A stretch of 64,000 bases of DNA. Origin: Gracilimonas mengyeensis (lineage in GTDB: Bacteria > Bacteroidota > Rhodothermia > Balneolales > Balneolaceae). The stretch's first letter is position 1; each line of letters opens with the position of its first letter. The position numbers and the translations under genes are program-made. Under the pieces are notes generated by a model, which did no database searches, was not told the DNA's origin, and saw nothing but the letters and a program-made list of their open reading frames with translations. The stretch spans positions 62,001 to 126,000 of the forward strand of contig NZ_FXTP01000007.1 of the NCBI RefSeq assembly GCF_900182705.1. The letters are read 5' to 3'. Positions 6,187 through 18,097 of this stretch are shown piece after piece.

Positions 6187-6780
6187 TCAATGGCTATGTG
6201 GGGTTGCGTTTTCAGCTTTAACTGCTTCATAAACCGGCTCCACATAATGCATGAACTTCACATATTTGTGCACAAACTCGCGGCCGGCCTCTATGTTTTC
6301 AGGATTGTAATCTTTGGCTTCAATCATTTCATCAAAATGCTTGTGAAGTCCTTCTTCAAAGGTTTTCACAATGAGGTTTCGTACTTCTTTTAATGAACCG
6401 GTTTCAAGGGCATTATCTCCGGCGGGAATGGCAGGTCCAAAATCGGTGCCGGCTGGCTTTAATCCGGTATATGGTGCACCTTCAGATTCGCGATGCAGGC
6501 GAACCAAGGTTTCAAGGAAATGGCGATCGGCGACTTTCCGTACCTTCTCATTCATATCCCTGATTTCCAGAGTTTCACTAAATGTAGTTTGGACTTCCCT
6601 TTCTTGTTCTTCGGTGATCCACTTGAGTACCGGGGTGATATCGCCGTTTTCAAGAGCGATTTGAGCGTCTTGCACTACCGGACCATCCATGCTGTCGCAA
6701 TGAGCCTGCGAGAGGATGGGGGTTAATGAAAAGAGGGTTACAAGTAGGAGTGTAAGTAATGTTGATATTTGAGTATTCAT
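6187..6780 (-). CDS. DUF6448 family secreted protein
   Basis: 197 aa with an N-terminal signal peptide ending near SQAHC, so exported. The mature part starts with HCDSMDGPVV and contains PAGDNALETGS, features I associate with DUF6448 proteins; histidines are frequent, including a PHSH tail, which would suit metal or heme binding, but no function is known. It starts 65 bases downstream of an Fnr-type box (6845-6858), a fitting distance for activation, and sits between the metal-export genes and the P450/heme-copper pair. Expression under low oxygen or NO is inferred from the box. Confidence 0.75.
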   Translation of the reverse strand: MNTQISTLLTLLLVTLFSLTPILSQAHCDSMDGPVVQDAQIALENGDITPVLKWITEEQEREVQTTFSETLEIRDMNEKVRKVADRHFLETLVRLHRESEGAPYTGLKPAGTDFGPAIPAGDNALETGSLKEVRNLIVKTFEEGLHKHFDEMIEAKDYNPENIEAGREFVHKYVKFMHYVEPVYEAVKAENATPHSH

Positions 6781-6844
6781 AACTGTTAGTTTTTGGGGTT
6801 CTTGATTTTCATCCCCAATCTAACAGTAAGAGGTGCGCACTAAA

Positions 6845-6858
6845 ATGATGTAGATCAA
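6845..6858. promoter_or_regulatory. Fnr-type box upstream of DUF6448 and P450
   Basis: ATGAT-GTAG-ATCAA fits the TTGAT-N4-ATCAA consensus with one mismatch. A 22-base stretch here (6837-6858) matches 21 of 22 bases at 18068-18089 upstream of the PrpD/ComA genes. It lies between the divergent DUF6448 (minus) and P450 (plus) genes and could serve either. Confidence 0.6.
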
Positions 6859-6995
6859 TCAGACTACTTCAGTTTTAAGAGTCTTTACTCTTAAAATATA
6901 TACCTCTATTTTGGATAATCCATCTATTTCCTTGGTTAACAAACTAAAGGCATTTTTCAAACTTCTTTCTGAATTAGAATTACGTTCGTACAAGC

Positions 6996-8147
6996 ATGAC
7001 AAACAGCAGTAAGAGTCAAACCATCAACCAGAATTTCCCCGACGATATGCGCAAAAGTTTCGACAAACTACGCAACCAATGCCCGGTTGCCAAGGATGCA
7101 AGCGGCCACTGGCAGGTAATGGACTACGCAACCGTGGAACGAATCTTGGAAGACCCTCACACTTTTAGCAACCAAGTTTCAAGTCATCTTTCAGTACCCA
7201 ATGGAATGGATCTTCCTGAACACACCAAATACCGTGTACTGATTGAACCCTATTTTTCAGAGAGTGTAATTAATCGGTTTGAAGATGATTTCAGGAAAAC
7301 GGCCCGTAAGCTCATCAGTAATGCAAAAAAGCAAGATGCAGCTGAACTCATGGGAACCCTTGCCCGGCCTTATGCAGGGCGCGTACAATGTGCTTTTCTC
7401 GGATGGCCGGCTTCCCTGGCAGATACGCTCATAAGCTGGACGATGGAAAATCAGCATGCGGCCCGTATTAACAACCGTGACCGGTTGGATGAACTCGGGC
7501 AGGAATTTGAGGAGCTGGTTGCAGAAATCATGGAACAGCAGCGTTCATCCTTAAAAAATAATGCGCCTTCAACCCTTACGCAGTCGCTGATGAACGAAGA
7601 AGTAGACGGGCGCAAATTAACCACTGAAGAACTCACCAGCATATTACGTAACTGGACAGTTGGAGAAGTAGGATCTATTTCAGCTTCTATTGGAATCATA
7701 ATACATTTTTTGGCCCATCATCATGAAGTGCAGGAGCAGCTTCGGAATCATCCCGAAAAAATAACAGACGCCACTGATGAAATTCTTCGCATCCACGGGC
7801 CACTTGTATCAAACCGAAGAAAGACCACCTGTCCCGTACAGCTAAACGGCGAAAAAATTGAGAAAGGTGAAACTATATACCTCAACTGGATATCTGCCAA
7901 CCGAGATGAAGCCGTATTTGAAGCACCTGATGAATACCGGGAAGATCGTGATTCCAAAAAAAATCTTTTATACGGGAAAGGCATTCACGTTTGTCCTGGT
8001 GCACCGCTGGCCCGCATGGAGCTTCGGATATTCCTGGAAGAATTGTTTGCGCAAACCCAGGTTATTTGTCCCTCACCCGGCTCCAACGAATGCTACGAAA
8101 CCTTGCCCGCCAGCGGATTTTCATACCTGCCCTTAACCTTTAGATAA
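6996..8147 (+). CDS. Cytochrome P450, atypical I-helix
   Basis: 383 aa, bacterial P450 length, no membrane anchor. Heme-thiolate loop YGKGIHVCPGAPLAR with Cys333, K-helix ExxR as EILR (262-265), PERF-region equivalent near residue 312. In the I-helix (about 219-232, WTVGEVGSISAS) the acid/alcohol pair that normally delivers protons to bound oxygen (E/D-T) is replaced by Gly-Ser. That argues against an ordinary monooxygenase and fits NO, peroxide or other unusual chemistry, but this is inference. The next gene, 13 bases downstream, is a heme-copper-oxidase-like protein, and the pair lies next to an Fnr-type box. No dedicated ferredoxin is adjacent; one exists at 23.3 kb. Confidence 0.88.
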   Translation: MTNSSKSQTINQNFPDDMRKSFDKLRNQCPVAKDASGHWQVMDYATVERILEDPHTFSNQVSSHLSVPNGMDLPEHTKYRVLIEPYFSESVINRFEDDFRKTARKLISNAKKQDAAELMGTLARPYAGRVQCAFLGWPASLADTLISWTMENQHAARINNRDRLDELGQEFEELVAEIMEQQRSSLKNNAPSTLTQSLMNEEVDGRKLTTEELTSILRNWTVGEVGSISASIGIIIHFLAHHHEVQEQLRNHPEKITDATDEILRIHGPLVSNRRKTTCPVQLNGEKIEKGETIYLNWISANRDEAVFEAPDEYREDRDSKKNLLYGKGIHVCPGAPLARMELRIFLEELFAQTQVICPSPGSNECYETLPASGFSYLPLTFR

Positions 8148-8160
8148 TGCGGCCCATATC

Positions 8161-9558
8161 TTGACCACTAAGCAGCCACAAAATATTCTAACTGGCTTAC
8201 ATTTAAGAATTAGCCCGAGACAACTGTCGCAGGCATGGATTCTGTTCAGCATTTTCGCGCTAATTTTAGCCGGATTTCTTTCCCTATTCATAATGTTGGG
8301 GCGCGCTCCGTACATCAACGATTGGATGTTTGGCACCGAATGGATGCGACGCATCCTAGTAGTGCACGTCAATCTCGCCCTTACAGTCAGCTTTTATGCT
8401 TTCATCACGGGGCTGTTCTTGATGATTCCATCCTCTCAAACCTTCATAAATAAAAGGCAGCTTCTATCTTTTGGAATGGCATTGGCAAGCACTCTTGTAC
8501 TTACCATCAGCGGCTTCATTCCGATTGGGGAACCTATTTTATCAAACTATGTGCCCGTTATTGACCATCCCATTTTTATTGTCGGTCTTTGTTTTTTTGC
8601 ATTGTCGCTAATCCTCACGTATTGTGATGAACGCTTGCTACCGAACTTTGTAAGATATACATATATCAGCGAATTCAACTTTCCGGTTTCGATCATTCCA
8701 ATACTACAGTCGGCCGTTATAATCCTTGTTATCGGTGTACTTAATTTTCTCCATGCCTGGGTGATTACTCCTGCAGAATTATCCCCGGAAGTCTATTTTG
8801 AATTAGTACTTTGGGGCGGTGGACATGTACTACAGTTCACAAATATGGCTGCTGGTGCAGCAATTTGGGGATTGCTTTTCCACAGTACAACTCAGAAACA
8901 TTTTATGTCTTATCGCACCAATTTCATTCTTTTTGGACTATACGCATTACCCCTGTTTTTTACACCTTTTTTGCTGCTCGAAGGCACAACTACCGCTTTG
9001 TATATCACAGGGTTTACCCGTTATATGCAGTGGGGCATTTTTCCGGTTATTACGGTTGTAACAGTGATTGTAATTATTAGGATGATCCAGAACAGGACCT
9101 TTTTTAAGCTCAAAACCATCCTGTCTAACCCGGCCTATACGGGACTTGTTTGGAGTCTATTTTTAACTATTTCCGGCTTCATCCTCGGGGCAATGATTCG
9201 AGGTTCAAATACGATGGTGCCCGCTCATTATCATGCAACACTTGGAGCTGTTACCATAGCCTTTATGGCTGGTACATATGAACTTATGGGGTATTACGGT
9301 TATCCGTCGCCATCATGGAAAAGTAAAAAGCAGGAAGCTATTCAATTACTTATTTTCGGTGTTGGGCAGACTATTTTTGTAAGTGGACTTGCCGTGGCCG
9401 GAACGTATGGATTGGCACGCAAAGTTTTTGGGGAGGAGCAACTTATATTATCTCCAGAAATTTATGTCGGTCTTGGTTTACTGCTCGTTGGTGGCTTAAC
9501 TGCTATTTTGGGTGGAATTCTATTTCTAAAAAATATACTTGCATATATTCGCCCATAA
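8161..9558 (+). CDS. Divergent heme-copper oxidase subunit I-like membrane protein (candidate NO reductase-like)
   Basis: 465 aa, about 12 membrane segments, TTG start 13 bases after the P450. It keeps the heme ligands expected for subunit I: His69 in helix II (VVHVNLAL), His222 in helix VI (GGGHVLQF), and His356/His358 in helix X (PAHYHATLG). The HisHis pair of helix VII that normally completes the CuB/FeB site is absent; no HH dipeptide occurs anywhere in the protein. The active-site metal must therefore be bound differently or be missing. Context with a P450 and, further on, NnrS, RIC, DUF2249 and Fnr-type genes suggests NO chemistry. No cytochrome c subunit or CuA subunit is adjacent. Family level is reliable, the reaction is not established. 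Confidence 0.75.
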   Translation: MTTKQPQNILTGLHLRISPRQLSQAWILFSIFALILAGFLSLFIMLGRAPYINDWMFGTEWMRRILVVHVNLALTVSFYAFITGLFLMIPSSQTFINKRQLLSFGMALASTLVLTISGFIPIGEPILSNYVPVIDHPIFIVGLCFFALSLILTYCDERLLPNFVRYTYISEFNFPVSIIPILQSAVIILVIGVLNFLHAWVITPAELSPEVYFELVLWGGGHVLQFTNMAAGAAIWGLLFHSTTQKHFMSYRTNFILFGLYALPLFFTPFLLLEGTTTALYITGFTRYMQWGIFPVITVVTVIVIIRMIQNRTFFKLKTILSNPAYTGLVWSLFLTISGFILGAMIRGSNTMVPAHYHATLGAVTIAFMAGTYELMGYYGYPSPSWKSKKQEAIQLLIFGVGQTIFVSGLAVAGTYGLARKVFGEEQLILSPEIYVGLGLLLVGGLTAILGGILFLKNILAYIRP

Positions 9559-18067: not shown

Positions 18068-18097
18068 GCACTAAAATGATATAGATCAAGTTAGTGC
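18068..18097. promoter_or_regulatory. Extended Fnr-type dyad upstream of PrpD/ComA
   Basis: ATGAT-ATAG-ATCAA at 18076-18089 fits TTGAT-N4-ATCAA with one mismatch, and an outer pair GCACTAA (18068-18074) / TTAGTGC (18091-18097) shares exactly the same centre. It lies between the end of the Crp/Fnr gene and the PrpD start, so it likely drives PrpD-ComA. Near-copy at 6837-6858. Confidence 0.65.

Follow-up and report, generated by a model that had tools for sequence, protein, structure and literature searches.

Does a cytochrome P450 gene that stands 13 bases before the gene of a heme-copper-like membrane protein, on the same strand of the Gracilimonas mengyeensis genome, form with it a new enzyme pair for nitric oxide (NO), as a sequence-only reading had proposed? 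The two genes lie in a 64,000-nucleotide stretch of contig NZ_FXTP01000007.1 (hereafter the window), where the list of open reading frames bears out their spacing (Table 1). The explanation that we favor, with moderate confidence, is that the locus corresponds to a nitric oxide response that later captured the P450.

Table 1. Features of the P450 and membrane-protein locus in window coordinates
Feature	Position	Strand	Description
DUF6448 protein	6187..6780	-	197 aa, predicted exported; Pfam PF20046, E-value 3e-57; divergent neighbor
Fnr-type box ATGATGTAGATCAA	6845..6858		1 mismatch; probably belongs to the divergent DUF6448 gene
Perfect palindrome TTTTAAGAGTCTTTACTCTTAAAA	6873..6896		24 bases, TTAAGA-N8-TCTTAA; candidate operator of an NO regulon
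P450-holding stretch	6935..8134		About 1200 bp; replaces about 22 bp of sister locus L011
Cytochrome P450 gene	6996..8147	+	383 aa; ORF, Pfam p450, residues, family alignment, tblastn
Heme-copper oxidase/NO reductase subunit I paralogue (orphan copy)	8161..9558	+	465 aa, TTG start

Membership of the first protein in the P450 superfamily is given by its Pfam p450 match (E-value of 8e-26, 91 bits versus a cut-off of 22.8), and a residue check located both the heme-ligand Cys333, in the sequence YGKGIHVC, and the ExxR of the K helix (EILR, at position 262), as had been described. The sequence-only reading also held that Gly-Ser replaces the acid-alcohol pair of the I helix, which is half correct. 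In the motif G223-E-V-G226-S227 the acid is lost at Gly226, and the canonical pair of monooxygenases is absent, but Ser227 aligns at the alcohol position, so the alcohol is retained. An alignment that took in proteobacterial, cyanobacterial, and Deinococcus members shows this arrangement family-wide, with Gly at the acid site and Thr or Ser at the alcohol site, and in most members a Glu or Asp is found two positions before the acid site.

The P450 is the single member of its family in 92 Balneolaceae genomes, the next best match in a 296-genome sample of the phylum being 31% identical. Among plasmids, matches of about 40 to 47% identity are clearly separated from the remaining ones. In six proteobacterial replicons, members of the family lie beside narGHJI-narK, nirK, norEF, nnrS, and hemerythrin genes. 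The copies of Paraburkholderia and Caballeronia follow narGHJI and narK, the former with NnrS, hemerythrin, and Rrf2 genes close by; that of Ensifer is accompanied by NnrS, hemerythrin, and genes resembling norE and norF; in Shinella, NnrS is two genes further; and in Ciceribacter, the P450 adjoins a divergent NirK scoring over its NCBIfam cut-off. No such neighbors are present at the more distant cyanobacterial and Deinococcus members of the family, where one locus has only a nitrite/sulfite reductase, nor at four still more distant control P450s. A 136-aa protein is encoded before the P450 in two Burkholderiales loci (L021:6358-6768 and L022:6340-6750); its annotation as ‘ribonucleotide reductase subunit alpha’ seems wrong, and it has no NCBIfam match. 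In the open literature, nothing relevant was found on a P450 in nar/nir/nnrS clusters, and the reported P450 of Hyphomicrobium denitrificans lies in a sulfur-oxidation locus.

The closest known system would be the fungal P450nor (CYP55). The window P450 resembles it in the P450 fold, the heme-thiolate Cys, and a gene context of NO and denitrification; moreover, it lacks the classical I-helix acid, which CYP55 is not known to have either. On the other hand, the window protein is only predicted to bind NAD(P)H and to turn over NO, and no CYP55 entry is found among the best 60 of its 418 PDB matches, the best of which are ordinary bacterial P450 monooxygenases.

For the membrane protein, the residue check placed histidines at positions 14, 69, 136, 198, 222, 241, 247, 356, and 358, with no HisHis dipeptide anywhere in the chain, in agreement with the four heme/metal histidines that had been listed (69, 222, 356, and 358). 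The Pfam COX1 match is under the gathering score (E-value of 9e-6). Aligned with eNOR, caa3, and cbb3, the protein keeps the low-spin heme ligands of helices II and X (His69 and His358), and the proximal His of the high-spin heme in helix X (His356) is kept in 14 of 14 family copies. The CuB/FeB site, which had been supposed to be altered, is incomplete in every one of these copies: the helix-VI His222 is kept and the helix-VII HisHis is missing, two of the three CuB histidines thus being lost. All four histidines are invariant in the 14-member alignment, in which helix VII shows no conserved ligand of another kind. The designation ‘helix-VII-less’ is therefore right about the HisHis and wrong about the helix, which aligns in the 14 members. 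On account of these ligands, the view of the protein as a working NO reductase was rejected. An AlphaFold2 model from a three-sequence alignment is of low confidence (pLDDT of 56, pTM of 0.58); its top Foldseek matches are cbb3, aa3, ba3, and NOR, with TM scores of about 0.6, and because of the low confidence no geometry of the metal site is claimed.

The relatives of the membrane protein point to eNOR, a B-family-related nitric oxide reductase whose characterization is credited to Murali et al. 2024 in a passage of PMC11388526, and which is defined by a Gln at the fourth position past the His of helix VI (Gln-323; PMC8756737). The family comprises 14 copies in 13 of the 92 Balneolaceae genomes, the closest relative being encoded by a Gracilimonas MAG (L011, 79% identity), which is treated with the congener G304 as one genome. 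All the non-orphan copies, eleven of the 14, open an eNOR operon. After them come the genes of a CuA subunit, of another heme-copper protein, of Sco, and of a fusion of cytochrome b with ferredoxin. This other heme-copper protein has the HisHis and the Gln four residues past the helix-VI His, and most of these operons lie beside a divergent Rrf2 gene. NirK and an azurin-like protein are encoded next to the operon in G274 and G298, the NirK of G274 scoring over its NCBIfam cut-off. In the phylum sample, the five Balneolaceae genomes with a close eNOR all carry the membrane protein as well, and eNOR genomes in other families of the class lack it. A dyad of approximately AATAGA-N8-TCTATT, different from the palindrome of Table 1, is seen between Rrf2 and the membrane-protein gene before eNOR operons (L012, L030, L075, and L077), possibly the operator of the local Rrf2 protein.

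Three copies, those of the window, G304, and G299, are orphans outside eNOR operons, and the first two form one long, well-supported branch of the tree. The third (L076:9875-11278), another CuB-less paralogue, has a neighborhood partly common to the sister locus, with no P450, DUF6448, or eNOR adjoining. A comparison with eNOR itself shows a protein of the same superfamily that aligns over its whole length at about 27% identity and retains the low-spin and high-spin heme histidines and that of helix VI. However, helix VII has, for example, TPF for AHH, Phe226 occupies the place of the diagnostic Gln, the C-terminal extension is absent, and the window copy lies outside an eNOR operon. NnrS (PF05940) is likewise a multi-helix membrane heme protein of NO clusters, but it is a separate Pfam family and the window protein matches COX1 instead. 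Judged by these alignments, the membrane protein is a putative CuB-less paralogue of the eNOR-associated heme-copper subunit. No description of such an eNOR companion was found in the open literature, a search in which Murali et al. 2024 was not included. The plasmid search returned no match for this family, and in the window genome the COX1 search retrieved nothing besides caa3, cbb3, and two short fragments, and thus no NO reductase of the heme-copper superfamily.

The regulatory link to NO comes from the palindrome TTTTAAGAGTCTTTACTCTTAAAA, which is identical in the sister locus. The 4.67-Mb window genome has five perfect TTAAGA-N8-TCTTAA sites: two precede a NirK-like gene, one each lies in the promoters of this locus and of Rrf2-RIC(-NnrS), and the fifth is at an unrelated position. 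When the pattern taken from this genome was applied as a prediction to eight congeners, 13 perfect sites were found, of which 12 fell at the NirK-like gene, at Rrf2-RIC, or at the sister of the P450/membrane-protein locus. Over the nine congeneric genomes, the window's included, 16 of 18 precede NirK-like, Rrf2-RIC(-NnrS), or this locus. The site counts are not above those of a reversed-pattern control; it is their placement that is improbable, according to a rough binomial estimate. As in the known NsrR/Rrf2 regulons (Rodionov et al. 2005, PMC1274295), a palindromic operator precedes RIC (ytfE/dnrN), NnrS, and nitrite reductase-like genes, and the regulon includes an Rrf2-family gene. The motif, however, is unlike the published NsrR consensus, gATGyAT-N5-ATrCATc, so it is by inference that an Rrf2 protein is assigned to it; the one Rrf2 protein scored, encoded at a related eNOR operon, falls under the NsrR cut-off. 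By its palindrome, the locus is a predicted member of an NO regulon.

The Fnr-type box to which the sequence-only reading appealed does exist, but it is not the best regulatory evidence for the two genes. About five such boxes per window are expected by chance, and the box follows DUF6448 and not the pair: it lies at −78 from the DUF6448 start in the window genome, G304, and G293, one of which has neither the palindrome nor the pair. It was thus ruled out as key evidence. A second box, ATGATATAGATCAA, almost identical to this one, occurs at window positions 18076 to 18089. DUF6448, whose gene shares the intergenic region with the locus and adjoins the orphan membrane protein in L011 too, contains His; the window genome has a second copy at G000:C7:28249-28815, and in G293, G304, and G211 the gene lies about 10 to 20 kb from NirK-like or eNOR genes. 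Its structure model, built from two sequences, is of low confidence.

Also, other genes of the window genome (G000) deserve mention. The NirK-like copper protein (L044:7598-8731; G000:C2, about 385.6-386.7 kb), conserved genus-wide and with two palindrome copies just upstream, keeps the type-2 ligands and the Asp/His pair, has Gln for the type-1 axial Met, as in stellacyanin, and scores 152 bits versus a cut-off of 296. An NO-stress cluster (L038:5108-8651; G000:C4) encodes Rrf2, a RIC-like di-iron protein, a 418-aa NnrS-like membrane protein, and two small COX1-like proteins of about 140 aa, with palindromes before the Rrf2, RIC, and NnrS-like genes.

How the P450 came to stand here is indicated by the sister locus. 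In a blastn comparison of window positions 6500 to 8500, the segments 6500-6934 and 8135-8499 are each 78.5% identical to L011, where a gap of only about 22 bp separates them; therefore, about 1200 bp with the P450 are absent from the sister. The loci are otherwise collinear, with DUF6448, a P-type ATPase, and a short-chain dehydrogenase in common. Given that no other Balneolaceae genome has this P450, its gain in the window lineage appears likelier than a loss in the sister, and the two genes would have become neighbors only recently. Base composition (GC of 0.467 for the P450 versus 0.438 for the window) is uninformative on horizontal origin, so the insertion claim rests on this comparison.

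The claim of a new enzyme pair is not supported. The co-occurrence survey, which had been named beforehand as a possible refutation, found the P450 and the membrane protein linked in no other of the 92 Balneolaceae genomes, and a conserved pair is ruled out by the absence of the P450 from the other 91, sister locus included. What survives of the proposal, besides the altered CuB site, is the connection of each gene to NO, through the eNOR-associated paralogues, the P450 relatives in NO clusters, and the promoter palindrome.

A dedicated two-protein NO enzyme, in which for example the membrane protein would pass quinol electrons to the P450, is accordingly quite improbable. The 13-bp spacing, the same strand, the common promoter with its NO-type operator, and the absence of a redox-partner gene beside the P450 would fit such an enzyme, but the pair occurs in one of 92 genomes, the membrane protein is encoded without the P450 at the sister locus, no examined P450 relative adjoins the membrane protein, and relatives of the latter are missing from the plasmid records. 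An ordinary P450 monooxygenase that acts on an organic substrate, and that came by chance under an NO-regulated promoter, would agree with the best PDB matches, the recent insertion as a single gene, and the family members outside NO clusters. This is doubtful given that, across the family, the I-helix acid is lost but not the alcohol, and given the repeated, independent placement among nar/nir/nor/nnrS genes.

For the membrane protein, a possibility to be taken seriously, although short of even, is that of a di-heme electron-transfer subunit from quinol to a partner, in which His222, freed from copper, would ligate the second heme together with His356. Four invariant histidines, no other conserved ligand in helix VII, and the upstream position in eNOR operons favor it; nonetheless, electrons could also be delivered by two other products of these operons, a CuA subunit and a cytochrome b6/ferredoxin fusion, and the His222-Fe bond is supported by no structure. 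A role as sensor or sink, binding NO at an open high-spin heme devoid of CuB, seems rather unlikely. The protein retains His356 (proximal) and His222 (distal) and has lost the CuB ligands that enable catalysis, and NO-type operators precede the orphan copies of the window and G304; yet it lacks a signalling domain and has a short C-terminus, and its constant pairing with eNOR suggests a complex and not a sensor.

Returning to an NO response that later captured the P450, the following scheme can be proposed. An NO-sensitive Rrf2 repressor would control the locus promoter. The P450 would be a soluble heme-thiolate enzyme that turns over NO and most likely uses NAD(P)H to reduce it, as fungal P450nor does, and since the window genome has no NO reductase of the heme-copper superfamily, the P450 may fill that gap. 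The membrane protein would bind a low-spin heme via His69 and His358 and would hold another heme through His356, with His222 at the distal side; it would serve as an electron-transfer or NO-binding partner and not as a binuclear NO reductase. Catalytic activity is an inference for both proteins. Joint action of the two is possible and not required, and finds no support outside the window genome. A further reading, which we hold only tentatively and consider unlikely as a whole, is that this bacterial P450 family would be an NO reductase of denitrification clusters, replacing here the missing NOR, and that, in Balneolaceae, the adjoining new CuB-less heme-copper class would be a third subunit without which eNOR does not occur or work.

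Finally, eNOR, NsrR-type regulons, and P450nor are already known; two uncharacterized components, the P450 family and the CuB-less heme-copper relative, now receive a testable role in NO metabolism. The latter would be left out by design from census tools that demand all six histidines, such as the heme-copper oxidase classifier that discards sequences lacking them (PMC3084760), and the palindrome would be a simple marker of NO genes in Gracilimonas-type genomes. Because the locus shares its control sequence with the nitrite and NO genes of the genus, both proteins probably help this marine Gracilimonas-type bacterium to handle nitric oxide. If the P450 does reduce NO, the N2O-forming P450nor of fungi would have a counterpart in bacteria, and gene surveys would have missed a source of N2O.
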